From Sacculina carcini (lineage: Eukaryota > Arthropoda > Thecostraca > Sacculinidae), in contig OU696586.1 in NCBI GenBank assembly GCA_916048095.2, positions 5,913,749-5,977,748 on the forward strand: 64,000 nucleotides of DNA, in the 5' to 3' direction. Both the position numbers and the translations under genes were made by a program. Below the pieces are notes generated by a model that did not search any database, was not told where the DNA came from, and saw nothing but the letters and a program-made list of their open reading frames with translations. Below are positions 6,433-64,000 of this stretch, piece by piece (position 1 is the first letter of the stretch; every line of letters starts with the position of its first letter).

Positions 6433-7498
6433 AAAATATACAATATACAATATACAATATACAATATACAATATACAATATACAATATACAATATACAAT
6501 ATACAATATACAATATACAATATACAATATACAATATACAATATACAATATACAATATACAATATACAATATACAATATACAATATACAATATACAATAT
6601 ACAATATACAATATACAATATACAATATACAATATACAATATACAATATACAATATACAATATACAATATACAATATACAATATACAATATACAATATAC
6701 AATATACAATATACAATATACAATATACAATATACAATATACAATATACAATATACAATATACAATATACAATATACAATATACAATATACAATATACAA
6801 TATACAATATACAATATACAATATACAATATACAATATACAATATACAATATACAATATACAATATACAATATACAATATACAATATACAATATACAATA
6901 TACAATATACAATATACAATATACAATATACAATATACAATATACAATATACAATATACAATATACAATATACAATATACAATATACAATATACAATATA
7001 CAATATACAATATACAATATACAATATACAATATACAATATACAATATACAATATACAATATACAATATACAATATACAATATACAATATACAATATACA
7101 ATATACAATATACAATATACAATATACAATATACAATATACAATATACAATATACAATATACAATATACAATATACAATATACAATATACAATATACAAT
7201 ATACAATATACAATATACAATATACAATATACAATATACAATATACAATATACAATATACAATATACAATATACAATATACAATATACAATATACAATAT
7301 ACAATATACAATATACAATATACAATATACAATATACAATATACAATATACAATATACAATATACAATATACAATATACAATATACAATATACAATATAC
7401 AATATACAATATACAATATACAATATACAATATACAATATACAATATACAATATACAATATACAATATACAATATACAATATACAATATACAATATAC
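6433..7498. repeat. Perfect heptanucleotide satellite (ATACAAT)n, about 152 copies
   Basis: The 7-bp unit ATACAAT repeats over about 1,065 bp with no base change that I can find. Because 7 and 3 share no factor, every frame repeats with 21-bp periodicity and four long frames stay open; these 350-430-residue frames are artefacts. The flanks are unique sequence. The perfection implies recent expansion or strong homogenisation. Confidence 0.97.
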
Positions 7499-15006: not shown

Positions 15007-26178
<11,172 letters not shown>

Positions 26179-43139: not shown

Positions 43140-46100
43140 CAAACACCGGCCGGCGTCTCTGTGCGTGGGCCGTGTGTTTGTATGCGCGTCTGCCCGCCCG
43201 ACCCTTCCTGTGTGTGAGAGTGCGTGTGTGTGAGCGTTCGTGTGCGTGTGTGTGTGTGTGTGTGAGTGTACGTGTGTTTGTATGCGCGTCTGCCTGTGAT
43301 TCGTCTCGATCGGCGATTTTATCGCACTCGTAATGAGTGTGGTAAATATACCAACCGGACTCCAGCCCTCCCGTGCTGCCTCCCCTCCTGCCGGCACCAG
43401 CTGTGGCGTGTGCAAAACGGCCGTCTCTGTCTCTGCACTGTGCTGCTCAAAATGCAGCAAATATGTGCATGTGAAATGTTCACGTCTTCCAAGATACGTC
43501 GTGTTGAATTTCTTCACGACAAGATGCGCTTTCACTTGTGAGAGCTGCATTCTGGCTCGCGACCCGAACACAGCCGAGATGCGCGCATGGCTTGACAGTG
43601 TTTTTCACTCGTCACCCTCCGCCAAAGCCGATGAATGCCCACTTGACAAGCCCGCTGACAGTCAGTCACTGCAAGATCTGACTAAGACTGTCAATGAAAT
43701 CAAGCAGCAGCTTCAACTGGTCTGCAAGCAAAAACTCTCGTCTCCGCTTCTTCCTATGCCGCCATCTCTCATGCCAACTCCTCCATCTCTCCTGCCAACT
43801 CCCACATCTCTCCTGCCAACTCCGACATCGTGTGCGGTGCAGCAACCGCGCACATATTCGCAAGCAGTATCCCGCGAGATCATTGTGAAGTCTTCCGATG
43901 AAGTCGCGGTGGATTCCAAGCGCGTGTCAGAGGCACTTCAATCTGTACCAGTGCTGGCTATGACGACCACCAAGCGTGGTGCTGTCAAGGTGAAGTTGCC
44001 AGACAGCAAGACTGTTGGTCACGCCTTGAAGGCAATCAAACATGTGGCCCATCTGAAAACGTCGTGCCCTGGAAAAGTTCTGCCCAAGTTGACAATCACT
44101 TCTGTCAGTTCTGATATTGCCAACGACAACATAACTGAATTCGTCAGCAGGAAAAACAGCCTGGTCAAAGCTGCAGTCAACCGCGCATCTGACTTTCGTG
44201 TGCTGTTTTCCAAGAAGTCGTCGGAGCACACCAAAACAGTTGTTGTGGCTGTCTCTCCTTCAATCCGTGACATCATCATGAAGTCCGGATTCGTCTACTT
44301 GGGTGACAGCAGATGCCTTGTATACGATCGCTTCTGGGTCACGCGTTGCATCAAATGTCAGCGACATGGCCACAAGTCTGACAAGTGTAGAGCCCAGGAG
44401 GCCACTTGTGGGTGGTGTGCTGGAAAGCACACTACCAAGTCGTGCCCGGCGAAGAATGCCCGCAAGTGTATCAACTGTGCACGTGCGGGTCGTGCGAACG
44501 TCGGCCACACGTCATTCGACCCGTCGTGTCCTTGCTTCACATCATCGAGGACTCATCTGATCAGCCGCACTCAGACCGTCGAGGATTCCAACTCGGAAAA
44601 CTAGATGTGACCTCCGGCCTGACTGACTGTGCTCAGCAGTCGACTTCGGAAAGAGATGCTGGATCTTCAGTTCTGCTTCCTTCAATCAGCACTTCATCCG
44701 CTGATAAGTGTCTTTCTTCTCTCTCTGATTCATTTTCTATTATTTTGACATTATGGATTGTTATCGGATGATGGTTTATTATTTATTGTTATTTATATAT
44801 TATTTTCTTTCCAACTCTCTTTCTAGACTTTTTTCTCTTCGAACTCTCTTTCTCTCTGAATCTTTTGGGCGCTTCCGGTACATGGGGCCACCTTAGGGTG
44901 GTAATAGTGCTTGCACTCTTCCCATGCTACTGGATTTGCCTGTAATTAATAATAATAATAATAATATTTCTCGTTCTAAATCTAATAATGCAATTGGTTT
45001 ATTAAAATGTGCTTTCTTGAATTTCAGGTCTATTAGGTCTAAAATATCACTTTTTGCGTCCATCCTTCCTAAGTATGATATTTTTCTGATTATTGAGTCA
45101 TGGCTCTCTGTTGCTGAAATATCCTCCTTTGACCGCTCTCTTCCTGCTGGCTACTCAGCTTTTCATAATTGTCGCCCTTTGAATGTATCTAATCCTACTA
45201 AATGCTCTGGCGGTGGTGTTTCTTTTGTCTATAATTCTAACATCATTAATGCCTATCTATGTAGTGTAGAAATTCCTATTAAGTCATTTGAATACATCTG
45301 CTGTAAAGTAATAGGTAAAACTACTCTGCCTGTATGTATTGTCAACATTTACCGTCTTAATTCTTTCTCTTCCTCAATTTTTCTTGATGAGTTTTCTTCT
45401 CTTATAGACACACTTCTTCCAATTTTTTCTTCTAGAATAGTGATTTGTGGTGACTTCAACCTTTGGGTTGATGCGCCTCATCTCAAGTCTTGTTCTTCTA
45501 TGTTTTTACAATTAATCGATTCATTAGGTCTTTGTAATCATATCTGCTGCCCTACTCATGTTCACGGCCACACACTTGATCTCCTCCTTTCTTTCTCCGA
45601 TTCTACTATTCTTATTAGAGATCTCACTGTTTTTCCTATTGATTCCTTCATTTCTGATCACTCATTAGTTGAATTTTCTGCCCGCCTCCCTATCACTTAC
45701 AAATCTCCCAAACTTATTAGTTTCTCGGATTATCGTAACGCTGATTTGGACTCTCTTTATGTCAATATGCATTTGTCTTTTGCTACTGAATGTTTCGTTC
45801 ATATACCACCTAATTCTCTCTTAGGATACTTTAACTCATCCCTCGATTCTCTCAAATCAACCTTTATTCCTATTAAAGTCTTTCGTTCCACTAATACTCG
45901 CTGTCCTTGGTTTAACTCTGATATTAAAAATTCAAAAACCTCCCTTCGTCGGCTTGAGCGCCAATGGCGTCGTCTCAAGACTGACTCTTCCTGGCAATCT
46001 TTCTGTTCTGCCCGCCGTCATCATCATCTTCTTTGCGACTCCGCCAAGAAATCTTACTATAATTCTAAAATTTCTTCATGTCTTAACTCTAAGAAACTTT

Positions 46101-49100
46101 GGAAGCTTTTTGACAGTCTTTTAGGTAATTCTCGTAGTCTTGTTTTCCCAGATTCTGCCTCTAATCGGTTGCCTTCTTTATTTATGAATTTCTTCCAGTC
46201 TAAAATCGATAAGATTCGCTGCTTGTTCCCTGCTGCTCTACCATTATCCTCTCCGCCCTTACCCTCCTCTGTTTTTCACTCTTTTACTTCAGTTGCCCTC
46301 TCTGATTGTAGGACTATTTTGAGACGTGTTCATATTCATTCTTCATCTCTCGATCCCATTGATCTTTCCAGGATTCCTCACTCCATTGAATTACTTCTCC
46401 CTTTCTTAGCTAATTTCATGAATGCTTCTTTCACTCTTGGGGAATTTCTTGCATCTAAAACTGCCAGTATTATCCCTATACTTAAGAAATCTGATTTAGA
46501 TACTAACACGCTCTCTAACTATCGACCAATCTCTAGAATTCCTTGGCTGTCTAAGGTTCTTGAAATGGCTGCCTACATACAGATATCTGAATATCTTGAA
46601 TCTAACAATTTGTTTCTCCCTGAGCAGTCTGGCTTCCGTCACTTTCACTCTACAGAAACTTCTCTAATTTTTCTCTATGATTCTATTGTCAAATCTACTC
46701 TCTCTGGTAATGATGTTCTACTTATACAACTAGACTTCTCTGCTGCATTTGACACTGTAAATCATCTGCTTCTTATTGATACTCTGTTAGATTTAGGCAT
46801 TAGCGGCACAGCTCTCTCTTTCTTTCGCTCTTATCTTTCTGATAGACTTCAGTTTGTTTCTACCTCTGCTTATTCTTGTAGTGACGCTTGCCCACTAACT
46901 TGTGGTGTACCTCAAGGCTCTGTCTTAGGTCCTCTCCTCTTCAATATGTATCTTACCTCTGTAGGGAAAGTTCTTCGTCGTCATGATGTGTCCTTCCAAA
47001 TATTCGCTGACGACATTCAAATCCTTCTCTCGTCTGAGTCTATTTCTCACTCTTCAGTCAGTACCATCCTATCTGATATAGAAAGATGGGCGTTCACTCG
47101 TCATCTCAAGCTTAATCCTGATAAGACTAAGTATATTCTTTTTCCATCTTCTAATAGTACTACTTCTCTTAGTATACCTCTATCCTGCTCTGTACGTAGT
47201 CTTGGTATCATACTCGATAACTCTCTTTCTTTCGATCCACACATATCTGACATTATCAGGTGCTGTAACTATCAACTTAGGCGTATCTATTCCATTCGTA
47301 GATATATAACCATCTCTGCTGCCTTTAAGTTAGCTAATTCATTCATCTTTAGTAAAACTCAGTACTGCTGTTCTCTTCTACTATCTCTCAACCACAGCCA
47401 TCTTAGGTAACTTCAATCTATTATTAATAAGGCATGTCGTATGATATTTAATCTTCCTTAGGGCTCTCATGTTTCTTCTTCTTTACAAAAACTTAGGTTA
47501 CTTCCCATTAAGGCTCTTGTTTGGTATCGTATTTGTTTAATTATTCATTCAGCTCTTCATCTTCGTAAGCCTGCGTATCTGTTTGACCTCCTCTCATATA
47601 AAACCTCATCTCTTTCTCTTAGGTCTTCTAACGATCCTTTTCTACTAGTTGAACCTTTCTTTCCTTCTAGGCATTCTCACTACAATCGTTGTTTCTCTAT
47701 CTTAGGACCTCGTATCTACAATAGGCTTTCTCCCTCAATACGCTCAATCAAATCTCTATCTCTTTTCAAAAAACATACTAAAAATTTCTTTCTCACTAAG
47801 TCTTATTACTGTCTTAATAATATTGTATATATTAGTACTGAATATAAGGTCTGATTGTTTCCTAATTCTGTCTTCTATGTGTATGTGCTTCATGCGTGTG
47901 TCTTCTGTTCTTGTGTCTTTATGTTTCTCCATTGTATGCTGTATGTGTGTTGTTGTGTTGAGCTCTGTTATCTGTGTTTGTGTGTCTGTTGTGTTGTGTT
48001 CTCTGTCTATTTGTTTGAGTGTATGTCTTTGTGTGTCTGATATGTTGTGTTTTCTGGTTTGTATTTGTGTGTCTATTGTGTTGTGATTTGTCAATCTGAA
48101 TGTATGTCGTTGTATCCCTGTTGTGTTGTCTTAATGTGTTGTATGTTGGGTTGTCTTCTGTGCTGTATGTCGGCTTTGCTATCTTATTCAATTTGTATGT
48201 GTGTGTGTGCGTGTGCATTTTTGTGTTTTTGAGTATGTAAACGTGAGTGTATGTTCGTGATTGTGCGTATATGTACTTGTCTATATGTCGGTTATATGTC
48301 TGTTTTTTGTGTGTGTATGGGTGTGTGTATGTAGGTGAGTGTGTGTGTTCGTGATTGTGTATGTGTATGACTCGTGTGCTTGTGTGTGTGTGTGTTGTGT
48401 GTGTGTGTGAGTGTGTGTGTGTGTGTGTGAGGGCTTTTGAGACCCTCGGGTGAAAAGCGCGATAAAATGTCTTAATGTAATGTAATGTAATGTGTGTGTG
48501 TGTGTGTGTTTTTTGTTTGTTTTATATATTATACATACACTATCATACACTCATACAAAACACGATATAAAACTGACAAACATGCACACACAAAAACATC
48601 AGTTCAGCAGCCCGGTGATAGCTGCCGCGTTGCCGCGCACGACCGCCAGACTGACCCGCTGTCTGAGCCAGGCCGTCTCGCGCGGCTCTCCAGAACGCTC
48701 TGTTATTCGACGACCGATGATCTTGATGAGGTCGTCGAATGTGGACCCCAACACGCCGGTCGTTTCGACGGCCAGCGGCGCGAAGTCATACCGCTGGCTC
48801 AGGTCCAAGTAGCGCCGTCTTTTAGTCTCCTCGGCCGCCCGAGCCGCTGCCCCGGGAGCGACTGCACCCTCCGACAGGTGTGCTCTGCTGAAAGTGTTGG
48901 TGCACGTTGCATCCCAAACCAGTGATTTGCCACGCCGGAAGGGAAAGATGGTGATCCCGTCCGGCCGGCGGCCGTCACCTCGGTTCAGACCGCGAGGTTC
49001 CAGCACTGCCGCGACTCCTGCCGACGCCAAACTGCGATGAACGATGTCGTTCAGGGCAGTGTGACGCGGCAGTCGGCCGACGTTGTGGCAGCACGACAGA

Positions 49101-51979
49101 CTGTGGTGGCCCCATCGGTCGGTCATTGAGCCGCAGCGGCACCTGTGCGGCTGCTGGATGGCGGCTCCCAGGCGCAGCGCCACGCCGACGCGAACGGCTT
49201 CGTCGGGCTGCAGCAGGCTGAGACTGGAGATCGGAAGGGCGGACAACCAGGCGCCGCTGTGAGGTGCGGCCGCAGCCAGAAGGCGAGCTCGGTCGACCTG
49301 GTTAGCTCTCTGGAGCAGATTATTCCAGCGGAGCTCTGACGCACTCGTGTCAAGGTGACGCTGAGTGAGGGGCTGATCCTGGCTGAAGGCCGGGCACATT
49401 TTACTCACAAACTCCTCTACGGGGGGCGCCGGGAGACCAGGTCTGTCACCGCGTTGGCGGTCAATTATATGACTGACCAGGTCCCCAGCGGCCTCCATTG
49501 AGGCGATATGAGCGGGCAGCGCCACGTCAATCAGCCGCCTAGCCCCGATGCCACCCAGACGGACGGGCAGCGCCGCTTGCTCCCATTGGTCGTCGTCCAG
49601 GTCGACGTTGCAGCAGCTGCCGATGGCCGATCGGAGGCTATCGTCGATGGTGACAAGCTGAGAGGTCGCCCTGTATACTGGGGCTGCTCTCATCAGGTAC
49701 ATGGCCCGCGGAACCGACGCGTATCTGCTCAGGAAGAACAGCGCCGGGTGCGAGCCGATGTTGGTGGTGCGCCTGATGAGCAGCTCCAGTTGGTGATGGA
49801 TGTTGTCCAGGGCTGCCGGTATGCCTCCAGACTCGAGGGGTGCGCCCAGAAGTGTCGCCATTGCCGCTGGTGTTGAAGTGGATCCCGGCAGGTGCCTCTG
49901 GATTAGCGTGTCGGCCGTGTCGTCATCGGAGGGTCCGAGCCCGATAGCCTCGCACTTGGTGGTGTTCAGTGTGAGGCCGATGTCGTGCAGGGCTGGGACG
50001 AGACGCCTGATATCTGATTGCACAACGTCTGAAGGCCCTCCTATTGTAGCGTCGTCGAGGTACCAGACGTTCAGCGGTGACTCGAGCCGCTGAGCCACCG
50101 GATCGACCGCGAGGGCGAACAGTGCGGGACCGAGAGGGTCTCCCTGCTGCACGCCGCGGCACGACCAGATACGCCTGGTACCGTGAAACAGAGGTGTTGG
50201 CTGGCCGTATGCCTGTGCGACGAGCGGCAATGCGACGGGGAAGCGGCGACTCACCTCATACAGCAGGGTGCGGCGGTTGACGCAATTGAACGCGTTGGCC
50301 ACGTCTAGTTTCACCAGAACGTGACCGCGCCGCCCCTTGTTCGCCGAAAGGAAGTGGCGCGTTGCGTGCACAGCCGCCTCACATCCCAACCTTGTACATA
50401 CGCCCAGCTGCACTGGGCGTAGCTCGTGCGCCAGCGCCGACGTCAGTTTACCGGCTACCAGCTTGCTGGCGATACGCCGGAAGATGCTGCCCACTGCTAT
50501 TGGGCGCAGACCCCCCGATTTTTTCCTAAGGGCGACGAGGCGTGCACTGAAAAATGCGCCCTTAGCGAAGTCGGGAATCAGGCCCTGTGCGCAGCAGTTG
50601 ATGAGGGCAGTGAGCGCTTTTAGCAGCTGGTTTCCGGCCTCCGCTGTCTGTGGGGCGAGCAGCTGGCGCAGGTGCATGGGCCGGAGACCGTCCAGTCCGC
50701 CCGACGAGCTCTTCGGCAACGCGTGCACGGCGGCTTTGACGTCATTCGCATCGAACGATGGCCCTTGTGGCAACTGGTCCTGTGGCCACTGTGGTTCGTC
50801 CTCGGTTGACGGCGGTTGTTTGGCCTCCAGCGCCTGTGTGACCTCATCGCTGAGGCCGGCGACAGCGTCGTCCGATGTGAGGATGCGCAGAGCCCCGCGA
50901 ATATCGCCGTCAGCCCACTTGGCCCTCACGCTGCGAGACACAACGGCGTCCTCGTTCTGCGGACGCGGGCGCGTGTGATGACGTGCACCGGCCTGTGGTG
51001 TTGTGATCCCGGTGCTCAGAGGGCCTGTCGCAGCGTAGGACAGCAGTCGCCACCAAGCAGTGGGTGTGCGCTGCTGCAGAGCCGTCGTGATACGCTCGGT
51101 GAGGTCGGCTGCAACACGGTGACGCAGGGCGCGGGGCACATGCTGCCGCACGTGGCGCTGCTGCCGCAGAGAAGCCAGAGCCGTGGCGATATCGTCCGGT
51201 GTGTTGTCGTTGGTGTCGATTCCCTCCGGTGAGTGAATGTCGCCGCACTCCGCCTGCAGCCGTAGACAGCCGCGACAGTGCCACGCCGGCAATACATCGG
51301 CTTGCGAGCGAGTCACTCCCACGCACGTGAGGTGGTAGGTTTGCTCGCAAGCCGCGCACGATATCGTGCGTTTGTTGGCACTGGGCGTGTTGCAGTGGGC
51401 GCACAGCTGCTGTGGAGACGTGGAGTCGGGTGTTTGCTGGTCCACTCCGACGGCGAGGCAGCGGGCCAGGCGGCATCCAGCGCAGCTTCTGTCCGTCGGT
51501 GTTAGTGAACAATTACCGCCGCGATTGCAAGACATGTTTCGGTCCTTATTTCTCGATAAAAAGATTTTGCACGCCGGGCAGATTGGCGTGCTGGTGCCAG
51601 CTCTCGCGGCAGCATCACATACGGCACAGGTCTCATTCAGCGTTGCCATATCTACATTTGAAGTTCGTTCACTTGTAGTTTTACTATTTAATTATCGCAG
51701 GCGCTACTCGTTGCATTTCGCGTGAATTACACTATAATTTTTCTCGGTGATTTTTCCTCAAAATTGATCGCTAACGTAGTGCTAAAAATGAAACCAATAC
51801 CAACATTATATAACGGAACAAAATATCTACCCTACGCACACCATACAAACTACACACACTCTACCACTCCTCACACCTATCTACACTCCTATGCAACTTC
51901 CTGACACCATAACACCATAAAAACCCAGTAAATTCCACGACACTACCAAAACACATCCGCACGTCACGACAGTCTAAAC

Positions 51980-52058
<79 letters not shown>

Positions 52059-55000
52059 CGTACTGTATGTATGTGTAATCGTGGAGGAGTTGTGTTTTAG
52101 CTCCGATGATGTAGCAATGTAATTCAGACTCCCGTGGGGTAGTGATGTCCCGCGCGCCTGTATGTAAATATACATCAGTATTTGCTTTGCTACACTATCA
52201 TTTGCTGGGAAACCCTGTTTTCGATTGCTCGTGCAATAAGTATGAAACATCACACACGGGGCTAGTCTCAGATAACTGGAGGCCATAGACAATATAAATG
52301 AATTGGCGGCCCCAGATTTAATGAAAAATTAAGAAATGAATACAACAGGTTAAGTTTGGAATATATGAACCAGATTATGCAGAATCCTGGCTTGAAAACC
52401 ACGTTTCATGAGAACCGAGCGATGCTGCAACACTGAACGTTTATCACAAGCACGGAACTTCGAGCCAAATTCAAGCTGTAGCAACACAAAATGTTATGCA
52501 CGAACATTTTGGTGAAGTGAAGTTGGAGCATGGTTTTATTTCGAGATTGCACCAGATTCTGCCATTTAAATGTTGTTGGAAGCAAGCCGAATATTGACTT
52601 GTAACAAGTGATCTTCCAACAAGTGCTCTTCTAACAAGTGGAATAGAAGATCACTCGTTAGAATCTTCTAACGAGTGATCTTCTAATAAGTGATCTTCTC
52701 ACAAGTGATATTCTAACAAGTGATCTAATAACAAGTGATCTTCTAACAAGTGATCTTCTAACAAGTTATCGTCTAACAAGTGATATTCTAACAAGTGATC
52801 TTCTAACAAGTGATCTTCTAACAAGTGATCTTCTAACAAGTGATCTTCTAACAAGTGATCTTCTAACAAGTGATCTTCTAACAAGTGAACTTCCAACAAG
52901 TGATCTTCTTACAAGTGATCTTATAACAAGTGATCTTCTAACAAGTGATCGTCTAACAATTGATCTTATAAAAAGTGATCTTATAACAAATGATCTTCTA
53001 ACAAGTGATCTTCTAACAAGTTATCTTCTAACAAGTGATCTTCTAACAAGTGATCTTCTAACAAGTGATCTTCTAACAAGTGATATTCTAACAAGTGATC
53101 TTCTAACAAGTGATCTTCTAACAAGTGATCTTCTAACAAGTGATCTTCTAACAAGTGATCTTCTAACAAGTGATCTTCTAACAAGTGATCTTCTAACAAG
53201 TGATCTTCTAACAAGTGATCTTCTAACAAGTGATCTTCTAACAATTGATCTTCTAACAATTGATCTTATAAAAAGTGATCTTATAACAAGTGATCTTCTA
53301 ACAATTGATCTTATATAAAGTGATCTTATAACAAGTGATCTTCTAACAAGTGATCTTCTAACAAGTGATCTTCTAACAAGTGATCTTCTAACAAGTGATC
53401 TTCTAATAAGTGATCTTCTAACAAGTGATATTCTAACAAGTGATTTTCTAACAAGTGATCTTCTAAAAAGTGATCTTCTAACAAGTGATCTTCTAACAAG
53501 TGATCTTCTAACAAGTGATTTTCTAACAAGTGATCTTCTAACAAGTGAACTTCTAACAAGTGATCGGGTGAAGGGGGGGGGGGGGCTAAGGAAAAAGTTG
53601 AGGGGGCTTGGCGAACAACGAAGAACTATACACTCTAACGTTGACTACATATTATTATAATAAGGGACTGGGGCACACTGGTTGAGTCCTCGAACTTGAA
53701 CCAAAATTACAAGACTTCATTTACAGTGGTAATACATTCTAATGTCCGTGATTATCATTGGGGGGGGGGGGCTCAGGGGGGACTTGCCATATTTTTAGGG
53801 GAGCTGGAGCCCCCAAGCGCCCCCTTGGCGCTGCCACTGATAAAGCTGAACTATCACAAATAACTGAGCCTGAAACACACTGACTTCTAACAAATATTAG
53901 CCACATTTGCAATACTATATAAACGCGTTCAAAATTGTATTCCCATTCAAGCAGAAATGCAGAATTATTTCAAGTTTTATTATTTAATAGCGAAAATGTT
54001 GGTTTAAATTCGCTAAATCAGTCCACTCAATAGCCAATGACAGTTGAACACTCAGCTTTCAAATATGCCCTGATCGATTTTCATTTTTGGCCAAATTGGG
54101 TATCACTTTTGTCAAATGGACTTGTAAATGGTATAGACAGCACGTGCTGTGACAAGCAGCACTGCGTCCAGTGGCAGAGCTGTGGTCAAACATGAAGGAA
54201 AGCGACAGCCCTTTGATCTTGTTTATACGGGAAAAGTTCTAGCGAAACTCTCAAAGACTGCAGCAGACTACTTGGCGCATCCAGCGGGTAATTACCGGAG
54301 TGCATGGGCGCCCCGCTTTCATTTGGATAACAAGCTGCACGTCACGAGCAAACATTGACAGAATCTGTATACGTACACACTCACACACATGCACACTCAC
54401 ATGTACACACACACACACATGTACACACACACACACACAGGCCCACTAGTGCTCAACTTTGGTAAATACAGCCGAGAAAATTGGTCATGGACGAACTTGT
54501 TAGCGTGTGGGTGCTAACAGATGGGAAGAGTTGACGCATTGGTCTTCTCGTGTATTTGCAGTGGTTGCAGTGGCGAATTGGGCACATTCAATGTGTTTTC
54601 ATTGATCGTCACAATATACTAAAATATAACTAATTTCTTAAATGAAACTTTCTGAAATTTTCCCTCAATATAAACTAGGTTAGGTTACGTTAGGCTTGGT
54701 TAGGTTAAGTTGGAATAGGTTAGGTTGGGTTGGGTTAGGTTAAGTTGGTCAGGTTAAGTTAGATTCGGTTAGGTTAGGTTAAGTTAGGTCAGGTGAAGTT
54801 AGTTTAGGTTAGGTTGGGTTAGATTGGGCTAGGTTAGGTTAGGTAAGACTAGGTTAGGTTAGGCCAAGTTAGGCTATGATAGGTTAGCTTAGGCTCCCTA
54901 CTTTTACACAATCATGATTTCGTTAACCGGATAATACAAATTTGCTTCGCCGAACAAATTTTATACTTCAAAATGATATACGAAAGTGATATACTCGTAC

Positions 55001-58000
55001 ATACACTATCAAACTAGCATATCTTCAATAAGGCTCTGATATAGAACATATATATCATGCAATTAGTAGATGTAGATGCGCGACTGTCATATATATTTAC
55101 GGTATGTACCATCTTGGCAAATGTCAGCATGCATCGCATCATATCGCCATCGCTGAACGTTGGCTGATATGTTCGTGGCTGATATGTTCGTGGCTGATAT
55201 GTTCGTGGCTGATATGTTCGTGGCTGACATGCTCGTGGCTGATATGGTACTAGAGCCAGTAGGATTTACCCCTTATCAACAGCTATTTATCTCATGGTGT
55301 ATTCTATCCTGAGAAGCTGCAGTCATCTTTCCGATACTCAAAAAGCCTTTACTCGATCCCTCACTATGTGGTAGTTACCGTCCTCTTTCTCTAGTCAACT
55401 TTCGCTCTAAACTCATGGAGTCTATTTATTCTCAACTTGAACCATTCATCAACAAATCTCTTGACCCCTTCCAATCGGATTTCAAGTCTGCTCACTCTAC
55501 TGAATCTGTCCTAGCCTCTGTTACTACTACTGTTTTTTCTTATTTCTCATTCGGACAATCTGCTTTGCTTTTCCTCCTAGATCTGTCGACAGCCTTTGAC
55601 TAAGTGGACCATTCAATTTTAATCAAAGATCGCTTCTTTCTTGGTGTGTCCTCTTCAACGCTCTCTTTTCTACATTTATATCTTATTGATCGTTTCTACT
55701 CGGTCATTTCAACTCCACTAGTTCTAAGCAAATTTCTCTACTTTCTGGTGTTCCACAAGGCTCTATTATATCCCCGCTTCTGTTCAATCTGTACATGTCT
55801 TCTCTATGTCCTATTCTCCGTCGCTATTCTCTCCAGTACCACGTCTACGCAGACGATATACAAATAATTATTCCTCATAATAATTGTTTCTACTGTTGCT
55901 CGCACTTGTCATCATATTCTACGTTCGCTATATCCTATCCGCCCTTTTCTCGACCGTCCCTCAGCTATTAAACTGATTCATTGTTTCATCTTTTCATGAA
56001 TCAACTACTGCAATTCTTTATATTTTCATGCACCTCGCTCCTTTCTGAAAATTTCACATGTTATTAATAAATCTTGTCGTTCTGAACTTTCTCCTTCCCA
56101 ATGTCGTCATACCTCACCCTATCTCTACAAGCTTCGATGGCTCCCAATCATCCCTCGCATCCACTTGAAAAATTTCTGTCTTGTTTATAAGCTTTTACAT
56201 TACACCCGGCAGCCTACTTACCTCTCGCAGCTTCTTACACAATCTAATAACTTTGTTTTCCGTCATCCACTTCCTTTATCCTGTCCACGTGCCCTCAAGG
56301 AATCAACCTGGTCTAGTAAATCCTTCCCTTTCTATGCTCCACATTTGTACAACTCTCTTCCCTCCCATGTTATCGCCTCCACATCCTCCTCTTCGTTTTC
56401 CTCTTCTCTGCGCAATCATCTCTGATCCATTTTTTGATCATGACATTCCATCTCCTTACGCTTCGCTCTGAGCCGCATACTGTACCCGTCTAGCTTCATG
56501 GGCGTAGATCCTGGGGTAATGTGGGTATATATACCTCCGACAAATCAGCTGGGGGTATGAATATGCAATTATATCCCTCGATAATTCTTCTGATTTCAGC
56601 TCATTGGGTATATTATCATCAAAATGAGCATAGCAAAAACTATCAATACGCGACAAATGTGTATGTAATTATATGCAATATATTTTTCATTGAAGTGTGT
56701 GGGTTGTAATTGACTAGGCATATAATGGTTGAGGGTCTCATGCAATTAACCAACTGAGTCACCTTAAACACCAATGCATGATTGCTACCATCCCCCCGAG
56801 CCTCGACACACATCTACGCCCATGTCTAGCTTGATATATTTAATGGCGGTGTTTTTTTCAGATTTTTCAGTTTTCTTAATATTGTCATGTTTAAATTATG
56901 CATTGTGTGTTTGTATGTGTGTGTGCATGAGTGTGCTTTGTGTTGTCCGAATCTTTGTTCTCCCTTAGCGGCGTGTTTCACCTATTCGTTTTTATTATTT
57001 GCTCCAAGATTTTTCGCGCATGTGTTATAATGTGCGCTATACAAAAAAATTTCAATGGATGTATGTATGTTGTGATATTCGCTTCCATTCCAAACCACTC
57101 ACCAGTCAAGCGCAGTGGCGTAACTAACACGCGGCCAGCCAGATCTACTGCCAAAACCGAGCGTTGTCATGGTGAGAACAGTAGTGACACCTGTCGGCAC
57201 AAATACATACAACGTTTTTAAATCTTACCGATAAATGTCAGTAAAGGTCTCTGAATTCAAGCGATGCAGGCAATACAATACATAAACAAACAAACAAACA
57301 AACATGTATTTGATATAGCGCCAAGTAGAGCAGAGGCGCGTAAAAGAGATAAACTGGTGCGAACAATATAAAGGAGTATTAGCTCATAGATGGAAAATAA
57401 ATGAGCCAGCAAAAATAACACACGTGATAAAAAAGAGAAAAACGAGTATAAAACAGCTAAAGAAATATCTTACACAGTAACAAACACCACATCACACATC
57501 ACATCATAGATTAACACTGGTAACCAAGAAAAACGAATGTAGAGAGAACAAGATTTAGTGCTGTCGGAATGGAGGAGTTAGAGGTGTGGGCAAAGATAGC
57601 AAAATTTTTTGCAGAGCAGAAGAGAATGAGGAGTATGATTTTTGCTTCAGGACATGAGGAGGAAGTTGATTGTAAAGACGGGGAGCAGAAAAATAGAAAG
57701 ACTTGGCTGACCAGTTTGACTCATGAAGAGCAGGAGGAGAAACAAGAGGTACAGGACGACGACTGGAAGGTCGCTCGCTACACTGTAGGAGGGTAAGTAA
57801 GTAGGAAGGGGGAGAAGGCGAGTGAAGAAGTTTATATACAAGACAGCAGAGCTTATGATGGATCCTCGAAGGGACTGGCAGCCAGCCTAGTTGCCGAATA
57901 TGTACAGAGGTTGGTGTCCTAGGTGGAAGACGCAAAACGAATCGACAGGAAAGGTTAATGATTGACTGAAGGGATCGAAGAGATTTTTGAGGTAGGTGAA

Positions 58001-61000
58001 AAAATAGAGAATTGCAATAGTCGAGACGGGAGAAGATATAGGAATTAACAAGAAGCAGTGCAGAGGATTCGTCGATGTGTCGGCGTATTGGGTAGAGTTG
58101 GCGCAAGATGAATCGACAGGATCGGGTAAGGTTTGAAAGATGTTTGGAGAAATCAAGTGAAGGATCAAAGACAATGCCCAAACTACGAATATGAGAGGAG
58201 AGGGACAAATGAAGACAGTTCGGAGATATCCTAGGAGGGTGAAATAAAATATACTCTGTCTTATCGGGATTCAAGAGGAGATCTCTGGAGGTCGCCCAGG
58301 CAGCAATGTTGGATAGAAGTTGGTCAATGAGATAACTGTTAGAGGACGAAAAAGGGAAATAAATTTGGATATCATCCGCATAAATGTGGAAAGATATAGG
58401 ATAGGTGCGGAGGATCGGACAAAGAGAAGAAACATAAAGATTAAACAAAAGAGGACCGAGAAGAGAGCCTTGGGGAACACCCGAAATAATAGGAGAAGAA
58501 GATGAATATTCAGAGTTACAGCGTACCGAAAATGACCGATCAGCAAGATAGGATGACAATAGAGACAGCGCGGAGGAAGAAAGACCGGCATGCCGTAGAT
58601 CCTGGCGGAGGATGGAGTGGTTCACAAGGTCAAAAGCGGAAGAAAAGTCAAGCGAAATGAAAAGTACAGAATTACCCACGGAAAAAGAAGCAAGTATATC
58701 ATTGAGCAGAGAGAGGAGCAGAGTTTCAGTTGAGTGCCCGGAAACGAAACCAGATTGACATGGATCTAGGGCCGAATATATGCAAGGACGGAGCTGAGGA
58801 AGAATGGCAGCCTCAAGAAGCTTGGAAGGAAGAGGAAGCAAAGAAATAGGTCTGAAATTGCTGGGGATGGAGGATTCAAGGTCCCAAATTGCTGGGGATG
58901 GAGGATGTGTTGGAGTGTGCGCAAGACATCAAAGGTGGTCGCTACAATTAAAACACTATCTATTCAATAACAATACAATTGTCGGAATCCATGTAGTTGT
59001 GACGTCACGGGCCGGTAATTATTGTCCCCTGAGCACTGCACATCTACAAAACTGCACTGCACAGCTACAAACCTTGACGTTACAAACCAAACCTAAACTA
59101 ACCTAAACCTACAAACCAAACCTACAAAGCAACCTTATTGGCGATATATAGTCCTAGTATTAGTATACGAGCCGTAGTATTCGTCCCTGCGGCCAGGGGA
59201 TAATAATACTGTCGCCGTACCCGCTGCGTGTCGTAAGAGGCGACTACAAGCGGACCCTCTGCTTCTTCCCTTCGATATACTACTGTCAGGACCGGGGGGG
59301 GGGGGGCGATAATTCAACAGAGTTGGTGCCCCCCCCCCCCCTGTAACGGCAGCTTTCTTCTGTCCTATCCTTCTCCCCGAACTAAAAAAAAGAAGACGAT
59401 ATATAGCACTGGCTCCCTACCTGTGAGCTTTGCAGGCTAACACTTTCGGGGTCATCAAATGTTTCTGGTTTTCTCCTCAACGTTGGAGTGTGAGCAAGGG
59501 TATTCAGCATTCCTGACTTCATTGAGATTGTTTTTCAGGTGATTTGTGTTCTACTTGTAGAATTGTGTAAACAAAATAATATCTGATAAAACTGAGTGGA
59601 ACCAGGCAGTACGCGGTTACTGTATGGGACCTCCAAGTGGCACGGGATCTCATGAAGGTTGGGAACCAGTGATGTAGAGGCAAACTGTTTGACCTAGACT
59701 GTCCAGAGCAGATATAACGCGCCATCACCGGCTCATTGAACAGTCTTCAATTCACCCGTCAATTCGCTACTGACAGCCAATAACGAGCCTAGAGAGCCAA
59801 ACGGGTAAATTCAAGCGGAGCTGGGAGTAGAGCAACAATTCGATACTCGGCGATGCACTGGCCTGATGTACTGGCCTGATGACAGCGGCTTCCAATGCTC
59901 CATTCACACACCCCCGACACTCACATATCATCGGAAACAGTCACATGTGAGCACCCGCATATATACAGGAGCACTTAACAGAGGGAGAGAGAGAGCAAGA
60001 GAAAGGACGACGATATCAATAACTGCTGTAGCTGTCAGACAAATGAACAATATGGCACTTGTCCGAGTGTTGGGCTTATTTGTGCTCAGAGAAATGTTGG
60101 CCAAGGTCGCAGCTCAGTTGATGACAGATTGGATACGTGAATAACGCTCATGCATCCAGTGAGATGTGAGTCAATTACCACTCGGCCTTTCTTTCATCAC
60201 TATATTGAAATCGATGAACATGATGAATAGGAAGTGGTGCAAACACTATAAATTACACGACTGTATACCATATTAGTAGGATTATTGTGCCGATATGATT
60301 AAACGTGATTCATATCTACGTATAAAGTGGGTATATATAGAAATATGTCACGATCATGGAATTAATTCATACTCAAATCAAAAATAAAACATTTAGCAAA
60401 TTGCTGGAGCAGAATGAATTACTGTCAGCTGAAGTAATGTGCTTATCAAAGCCGACACGTAATACGTTAAATTATGCTGTTCTACGCTAATATTGTCTGA
60501 TGTGTTTATTTCTGCGATAAGCATGCATCGATGAACTCAGATATAAAGCGAACTATATACACGCGCATCTCGGCTAGCTGCAAGTATTGATGGCTGAAAT
60601 TAGCGGAAACCAATTGTACACGGCAATGCAGCCATGTGAAGCGATTGATCGATGAATTTGAAAGCGAACTGTCTGTCTGTCTGTCGTGACTTGCTGTCGT
60701 CAAGTGGATTTTCTAAGGTGCGCCACATTCAGCTGTTAGCAGCCAGTGTTGTGTTGCCATACATAACAACATACATAACAACGCACCACGACAAAAACAC
60801 CATTGAACTGTCGATATTGTAATAGGCATTGATCATTCACTACCAGTGGCGACCAATCGAAACCAATTTCGGTTTCGTGCACTTAAATTGCCTCCGTTTC
60901 ACAGCAATGCCGTGTAATACAAGACAGCGTACTGAAATTAAAACACTATTATGGGAGACGCGCGTTTGTATGCTCAATGAATCACACCAACATCGTCTGC

Positions 61001-62539: not shown

Positions 62540-64000
62540 ATCTAAATTTTTCCAGATTGATGACTATGAGTTAGTGACCGCTTCGCCGGACAAAGAAAGA
62601 ATGATGGGTAAAGGATCTGCCATTTATGTGAGCAAAAAATAGAATTACATGATCAGTGACAAGTATTCAAGTGGCACAGAGATTGCCTTTCAGGCAGTTA
62701 CTATCGAGCTGTTTAACCCAAATCAAAGAAATGTAGTTTTATCTCTGTCTACAGGTCTCCCTCTTATCAGTCTTCCTTTTTTATGAATTTTTTAGACACA
62801 TCCCATTTTGGCACATTGTTTAATGATAACCTAGTGGTTATTGGCGGTGATTTTAACATTGGTATTTTGGATAATTCGCAAACAGATTTTGTTGATCTCA
62901 TGGCTTCTCAAGGAGTCTACCCAACAACCAATAAGCCGAATCGTATAACACAAACATTCTCCACTCTGATCGACAACATATTCATCAACAACGCGTCTCT
63001 AGTCTCTTCCAGTGGCATAATAACACATGATACCAGTGATCACCTGCCAACTTATTGCATTGTGGCGTACAATACTGTTTCACCCACAACATTGCATCAA
63101 AATAGGAAATTATTCAATTTTAAATATGCTCAAAAATTAACACAGCAAGTCACAGTTGAGATGGACAAGTTCTATGAGATATCAGAAGCCAAAGAATGTA
63201 CGAACTTCTTCCTACAAACAAGTGTAACTCAAATCGACAAATTATCAAATACTAAAAAGAACCTGAGGAAACAGCCTCAACAGCCGTGGATTAACAAAAA
63301 ACCTTTAGCAGACATCAATCTAATTAGCAAATTACATCTCCAATACGTCAAGAAACGTAAAAAGGAGGACTTTAAAATATTTAAAAAATTTCGAATACAT
63401 TAATAAGCCAAATCCAATTGGCAAAACAGAATACTCTCGAAACCTTTGACCTGAAGACCTTAAGCAACTAAAACGTCATCAATGCAATAAACGAATGATG
63501 TAGAACACATTCTAACCATAACCAACGTGAAAAAACGAAAATGGATTTTACCGTCCTGTTTTATTCACAATGATGTTTTACATGAAAACCCAACAGACAT
63601 TGTTGAAGAATTCAACATGTATTTTACTAACGTTAATCTTAATATAGCAAGAAATATGCCGCTTACCAACGTACACTATAAGATGTTTCTCGATCATTTA
63701 AAGTCGTGTGAAAGTAACAAATTCGTGTTCAAACTGTTCCAAATCTTGTCGTACACTCCATAATAACTCAAATGAAGAGTGGCAAGAGCGCACATGACGG
63801 TCTCACAGGTGAAATTCTAAAACTTATCGCCTCGTCATTCCTCGTCATTGCCGTTGTCATTTTTAAATGTAGCACTTCATCGCAATTTTTAATGTTTGCT
63901 GACGACACTGCTGTCTTTATCTCAGCGTCTACACAGAATGAATTGACGAGTAAAACCAACAATATTTTAAGTAACATATCAGAGTGGTTCAAAGCAAATA
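62540..64000 (+). pseudogene. Non-LTR retrotransposon, endonuclease and deleted RT, runs off the window
   Basis: An endonuclease is readable in the frame 62783-63403 (VIGGDFNIGILD, LIDNIFINN, HDTSDHLPTY). Further pieces follow in other frames (63527-63763; then HDGLTGEILKLIASS). Soon after comes the catalytic region (FLMFADDTAVFI) near 63890-63920, so most of the RT palm has been lost between these points. Stops and frameshifts show it is dead. It is a Jockey/CR1-group element inserted in an intron of the GABA receptor gene, antisense. Confidence 0.8.

Follow-up and report, generated by a model that had tools for sequence, protein, structure and literature searches.

The genome of Sacculina carcini probably harbours a retrotransposon without long terminal repeats (non-LTR), of the R2-like kind, that has captured a nuclear-receptor DNA-binding domain at its N-terminus, before a PHD finger, and whose copies lie in (CA)n/(TG)n microsatellites. 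The copy described here is found in a stretch of 64,000 nucleotides of contig OU696586.1 (positions 5,913,749 to 5,977,748; the window in what follows). A preliminary description of this stretch had reported an intact open reading frame (ORF) of 1,016 residues, in which eight cysteines spaced as in nuclear receptors precede a reverse transcriptase (RT) and an endonuclease, and had suggested domain capture together with a different mode of target recognition. The ORF is indeed present at 48599..51649, on the minus strand, and comprises the following parts:

48599..51649, minus strand: single ORF of 1,016 amino acids (aa), ATG at 51649, with receptor-type zinc module, PHD finger, RT, zinc knuckle and restriction-like endonuclease
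51440..51631, minus strand: nuclear-receptor-type DNA-binding domain (zf-C4, Pfam), residues 7-70, with a P-box-like segment of 10 residues
51266..51403, minus strand: PHD finger, residues 83-128, from Pfam PHD and AlphaFold (P0001 model, high confidence over most of the finger)
49943..50527, minus strand: RT domain, residues 375-569 (Pfam RVT_1), with D449 and YLDD at 530-533
49091..49141, minus strand: C-terminal zinc knuckle C837-x-C839-x9-H849-x3-C853, its four residues invariant in 47 aligned relatives
48755..49012, minus strand: restriction-like endonuclease region, residues 880-965, with RPDG at 895-898 and WD at 912-913, invariant in 47 aligned relatives; limits drawn by eye

The eight zinc cysteines of the window protein (C8, C11, C24, C27, C41, C47, C56 and C59) are separated by 2, 12, 2, 13, 5, 8 and 2 residues, in agreement with the spacing first described. 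A Pfam search, which the preliminary description had proposed for this region, gave a significant zf-C4 match at residues 7-70 (29.0 bits against a cut-off of 21.1, E value 1.4e-6), besides PHD (29.0 bits, cut-off 24) and RVT_1 (65.1 bits, cut-off 29.6). When compared with the PDB by phmmer, the N-terminus matched the DNA-binding domains of retinoic acid and ecdysone receptors at E values of 2e-5 to 1e-4, and the RT matched R2 retrotransposon proteins at 3.5e-12. The RT residues D449, D532 and D533 and the endonuclease residues P896, D897 and D913 are unchanged across the 47 aligned relatives. These comparisons support the assignment of the window element to the restriction-like-endonuclease (R2-like) group, with predicted catalysis. 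No ligand-binding domain was found among the Pfam matches of the 10 domain-bearing proteins scanned.

Homology to nuclear receptors, modest in the window copy, is clear in subfamily G (one of the subfamilies A to H delimited below) and in P0010, a relative from another source, and these are the most receptor-like versions of the domain. All nine further family members scanned with Pfam had zf-C4 above the cut-off (28.7-56.3 bits); P0010 reached 56.3 bits and matched the androgen receptor domain in the PDB at E 1.2e-14, while the subfamily G domain matched the androgen receptor at E 3.1e-15. In the genome profile search subfamily G scored 67.6-68.5 bits in L036-L040 and 51.1 in the decayed L043, on the scale of a search mode other than the Pfam scan, where the window copy scores 35.5 bits. 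These matches support a homology of the N-terminal module with the DNA-binding domains of nuclear receptors, and the receptor-type reading of the preliminary description is upheld with them. All eight zinc cysteines are present in 22 of 22 aligned domains, an alignment of hand-chosen rows (15 from elements and seven from host receptors, one partial) that leaves aside L052 and L053; some D copies (L016, L049, L050) have one residue fewer between the fifth and sixth cysteine. Domain identity is 32-60% between representative element subfamilies and 28-46% to the seven host receptor domains, highest for subfamily G. The P-boxes follow a pattern of xAC or xSC and then varied residues: CPACKIFL/F (A), CRACDVFW (B), CPACRQFF (C), CRACLVFF (D), CRACQAFF (E), CRACNVFY (F), CPSCREFF (G) and CRACSVFF (H). 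Concerning the donor receptor, the PDB matches were scattered over steroid, retinoid and orphan receptors, with the androgen receptor at the top.

Within subfamilies, the ratio of nonsynonymous to synonymous substitution rates (dN/dS) of the domain was 0.39, 0.18, 0.15, 0.16, 0.22 and 0.14 in six pairs with at least four synonymous changes, pairs that share sequences and are not independent. In one of two further pairs there was a single nonsynonymous and a single synonymous change (0.30), and in the other there were two nonsynonymous changes and no synonymous one. Judging from its substitutions, the receptor-like domain is constrained by purifying selection, yet fast-evolving.

The AlphaFold model of P0001, built from 47 rows, had a mean predicted local distance difference test score (pLDDT) of 86 and a predicted template modelling score (pTM) of 0.80. 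Foldseek placed R2 complexes at the top when the whole model was compared with the PDB (E 1.4e-23, template modelling score 0.53, aligned over the R2 length). In the zinc module, helices were predicted at low pLDDT at residues 25-33 and 57-65 in the P0001 model and at 33-43 and 67-83 in the P0010 model, in both cases where a receptor domain is expected to have them. Given the low AlphaFold confidence in this module, it is sequence homology that speaks for a receptor-type fold.

The genome search covered 264.4 Mb in 43 contigs, and its copy counts are lower bounds. The zf-C4 profile gave 147 matches, host receptors included (213 candidates, 150 scored). Among these matches, 39 lie within open frames of at least 930 codons, a count that omits one long frame whose match spans only 24 profile positions, and 17 of the 39 frames have exactly 1,030 codons. 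An RT-endonuclease query matched in 81 of 81 scored candidates, from 1,710 first-look candidates. Subfamilies were assigned from 20 loci taken in full: identity to the window protein is 92.5-98% in A, the window's own subfamily, 62-64% in B, 62% in C, 55% in D, 53% in E and 52% in F. Subfamilies G, with broken copies only, and H (L047 and L055, with RT near L055) were added from shorter stretches, which brings the receptor-type domain to eight diverged subfamilies of this genome. The open frame is not always intact: L030 matches residues 1-760 of the window protein, L026 matches 1-1006, and L032 ends early. Near-identical copies occur on many contigs, with A-tails and common element ends, and the elements of this multicopy family are apparently autonomous. 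A family lacking zf-C4 was also sought in this genome with P0015, a relative having PHD only, and none was found among the six loci read (68 matches; 45 of 1,707 candidates scored): five of the six carry the zf-C4 domain, and L102 is a copy shortened at its 5' end. As a side observation, leaders have been exchanged between subfamilies: the A copy L024 has a 5' leader resembling the one in L031, a B copy (80% over 218 bases), and unlike that of the window copy. The 3' end of L027 equals that of L022 (100% over 79 bases) and is likewise unlike that of the window copy.

The ends of the window copy and its flanks are as follows:

51985..52056, minus strand: 5' flanking (CA)36 microsatellite, taken as target
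51650..51984, minus strand: 5' leader of the element, common to other subfamily A copies up to the (CA)n edge, for example L027 (98% over 334 bases)
48509..48598, minus strand: 3' untranslated region with an A-rich tail at its end
48491..48508, minus strand: 3' flanking (CA)9, taken as target
48308..48429, minus strand: further CA-rich tract on the 3' side, beyond a short interruption

The start of the window copy at about 51984 thus adjoins (CA)36, and its A-rich tail adjoins (CA)9. Flanks were examined in 41 copies: the window copy, the 20 loci and 20 further A and B copies. We recognised the 5' end by a terminus motif from A and B copies and called upstream DNA CA-rich when at least 60% of the steps in 40 bases were CA. 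The motif was present in 21 of the 41 copies, with CA-rich DNA upstream in 15 of the 21 and TG-rich DNA in none; the other 20 are shortened or belong to other subfamilies or leaders, several of them with CA-rich upstream DNA by eye. At the 3' side, A-tails were found in 35 of 39 copies, a count that omits L026 and L030, whose ends differ from the usual stop; in some copies (L016, L022) the automated finder sets the end of the tail wrongly. CA-rich DNA follows the tail in 24 of the 35 and TG-rich DNA in one (L029), while 59,960 background windows outside the element were CA-rich in 1.8% and TG-rich in 2.0% of cases. Among the four copies that lack an A-run, two (L031, L061) pass directly into (CA)n, and in several 3' ends TG- and CA-rich stretches stand immediately before the tail. 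The 3' end of another copy lies upstream of L032 and of L102, and therefore elements pile up in the same repeats. Target-site duplications are not visible within such repeats. The target is (CA)n/(TG)n, with the CA strand nearly always in the sense of the element.

The preliminary description had also proposed a search for related ORFs elsewhere. The full-length protein query gave 243 matches in 7,997 scored candidates, 120 of them listed, and P0002 (56% identity over 99%) and P0010 (51% over 99%), both from other sources, carry zf-C4 too. The N-terminal region alone gave no match at E values up to 1e-3 among 73 candidates, and none in another search with nine candidates; because of this, the evidence for the fusion in other sources comes from the full-length search. 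Among the 47 relatives scanned, zf-C4 was detected in three and PHD in 27 (E value at most 0.01), and PHD was above its own cut-off in seven of the 10 domain bearers scanned. The proteins P0004, P0006-P0008 and P0011 start at, or shortly before, the GM (or its counterpart) that closes the domain, and P0005 extends further upstream with sequence that is not domain-like; in these six, zf-C4 may be truncated away or lie in another frame. No relative was found in the viral contig collection searched. A genome contig collection gave seven distant loci whose best segments are 29-34% identical; three of them (L001-L003) have no CA-rich flanks, but their distance makes them unsuitable as a control.

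A tree of 78 proteins, with the N-terminal region omitted, placed the bearers in a clade of 19 with full support (SH-aLRT, Shimodaira-Hasegawa-like approximate likelihood ratio test, 100). This clade includes the 10 proven bearers, P0004-P0008 and P0011, and P0003, P0009 and P0012, whose N-terminus is missing. In a second tree of 22 proteins, based on a full-length alignment from which columns filled in less than 80% of the rows were removed, the bearer clade had support of 100/100, was present in all 200 bootstrap trees and included the snow-crab protein P0031 (642 aa, 73% identical to P0010, N-terminus missing). In relatives outside the bearer clade, Pfam detects PHD fingers and no zf-C4. 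Since the bearers fall in one strongly supported clade, one capture of the receptor domain is likely from the sequences, in agreement with the domain capture originally suggested.

Another domain was met among sister elements, where 16 of the 120 listed proteins have a ubiquitin-specific protease (UCH) domain. It lies C-terminal to RT in five of five scanned (P0014, P0019, P0026, P0036, P0041; 142-221 bits); the barnacle proteins P0052 and P0055 bear the name ubiquitin carboxyl-terminal hydrolase, and UCH is also listed for P0059. By its domain arrangement this is another domain capture, and no report of it was found in a search of the open-licence literature.

Among the closest known systems is R2, whose proteins are the top PDB matches by structure and by RT sequence and which shares with the window element the single ORF, the central RT, the C-terminal zinc knuckle and the restriction-like endonuclease. 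In R2, N-terminal CCHH zinc fingers and a Myb motif hold the target DNA in 28S genes, one strand is nicked by the endonuclease and the nick serves the RT for priming; here, in contrast, a receptor-type module and a PHD finger are found with (CA)n. Nuclear receptors are animal transcription factors, and the element domain has their two zinc sites, P-box-like region and CRLxxC hallmark; unlike them, the element has unusual P-boxes and no Pfam ligand-binding domain, and its domain is joined to PHD, RT and endonuclease. A PHD finger within a protein of long interspersed nuclear elements (LINEs) is also known from CR1/L2-like LINEs, which, however, have an apurinic-type endonuclease, not a single ORF with a restriction-like one. 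For the crab and barnacle records P0031 and P0050 the source gives the name 'Retrotransposable element SLACS protein', which looks automatic; SLACS, in the SLACS/CRE group, differs in targeting spliced-leader genes. Concerning the target, the accessible portion of one paper (PMC4640811) discusses within the restriction-like-endonuclease group the fish element Togen, related to NeSL/HERO, as specific for (TG)n microsatellites, and mentions some microsatellite-specific families of HERO. The likeness to Togen is in the target, by description only, and does not imply kinship.

From these data a mechanism can be outlined in which the element protein would bind its own RNA, and the two-zinc module and the PHD finger would tether the complex to target DNA or chromatin. 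The endonuclease would then nick the TG strand, whose 3' end would prime reverse transcription on the A-rich RNA tail; it is from the orientation of the copies that the primed strand would be the TG strand. The PHD finger could possibly contact histone tails; by eye, it has no aromatic cage. As to the different mode of target recognition suggested at the outset, the target does look like (CA)n microsatellites, while a part of the receptor-like domain in choosing it is something we infer from the kept zinc sites, the purifying selection and the N-terminal position. We tentatively propose, as a possibility that we hold with some doubt, that the domain was captured once, acquired unusual P-boxes and was retuned into a device bringing the element to (CA)n, a receptor-type zinc domain programming the choice of target.

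Several observations weigh against the main explanation, an R2-like element with a captured receptor domain and copies in (CA)n microsatellites. The P-boxes vary between subfamilies and the target looks the same wherever it is seen, which speaks against a simple code. Six of the 21 recognised 5' ends fall below the CA threshold, four of them at 0.56-0.59 and two (L027, L096) clearly not CA. The decayed copies L052 and L053 each lack one zinc cysteine. Between subfamilies the dN/dS of the domain, computable in three of five pairs, was 0.19, 0.27 and 0.64, higher than that of RT and endonuclease where both could be computed. The zinc module, covered by only three rows, has a pLDDT of 30-50 in the P0001 model and of about 48-64 with P0010 as first row. 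On the 78-protein tree, finally, the domain label needs three changes if missing N-termini are taken as absence.

The same element and the same capture might also be read with no part for the receptor-like domain in the choice of target: (CA)n would be selected by the endonuclease, or by annealing of the RNA end with the TG strand, and the domain would bind the element's own RNA, its promoter or receptor-bound chromatin. We consider this rather unlikely, since the zinc sites are conserved, purifying selection acts on the domain and its N-terminal position is the one that the DNA-binding modules occupy in R2. It would agree, nevertheless, with P-boxes that differ across subfamilies with a target that looks alike, with the TG- and CA-rich stretches before the tail in several 3' ends, and with the (TG)n-specific fish elements of the same endonuclease group, Togen (PMC4640811). 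That the cysteines resemble those of a receptor by chance, or belong to an unrelated zinc motif, appears very improbable: the modest score in the window (29 bits) and the uncertain predicted fold would fit it, but the same region reaches 56 bits in P0010 and 68 bits in subfamily G, with receptors matched at E values down to 3e-15, and subfamily G and P0010 contradict it. The long intact frame would also suit a single host gene, and not a mobile element, in which a receptor was fused to a retrotransposon; we give this reading hardly any credence, as it is contradicted by copy number and flanks, that is, by many near-identical copies on many contigs, A-tails, common ends and insertion in (CA)n.

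The window holds other features besides the element. Another LINE-like pair lies at 43333-47410 (plus strand): one ORF is of 423 aa, and its C1/PHD-like match is weak; the other, of 828 aa, combines apurinic-type endonuclease and RT. Additional ORFs for RT or endonuclease are at 18501-19733 (plus), 57555-58841 (minus) and 62783-63403 (plus, weak). At 6435-7498 there is a perfect array of 152 copies of the 7-bp unit AATATAC, open in several frames on both strands. Pieces of an AAA ATPase gene (AAA and AAA lid domains) are found at 15320-16726 (minus), and a 72-bp tandem repeat of about nine copies at 15906-16544 is an in-frame repetition of a coding stretch. A 15-bp tandem repeat of about 60 copies (52663-53565) lies close upstream of the element. 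A cuticle protein, like the crab and barnacle relatives of the element, fits an arthropod genome.

We know of no retrotransposon with a nuclear-receptor DNA-binding domain. The open-licence literature of PubMed Central (PMC), with no repeat database included, yielded no earlier report of a retrotransposon with such a receptor-type module; one article about the nuclear receptors of spiny lobsters makes no mention of P-box, transposon or reverse transcriptase, and the accessible portion of one on Penaeus repeats names no such element. (TG)n-specific elements of this endonuclease group are already known, and the capture of a receptor domain is apparently new. R2 proteins are under study as gene-insertion tools, according to the accessible part of PMC11331408, and for this reason a DNA-reading module that was exchanged in nature has practical interest. 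If an entire family of elements, autonomous as they appear, has a receptor domain, domain capture would gain a new case. With eight subfamilies having different P-boxes and seemingly one simple target, and with close relatives bearing PHD and no detected zf-C4 available for comparison, this family makes it testable how the choice of target is built in LINEs.

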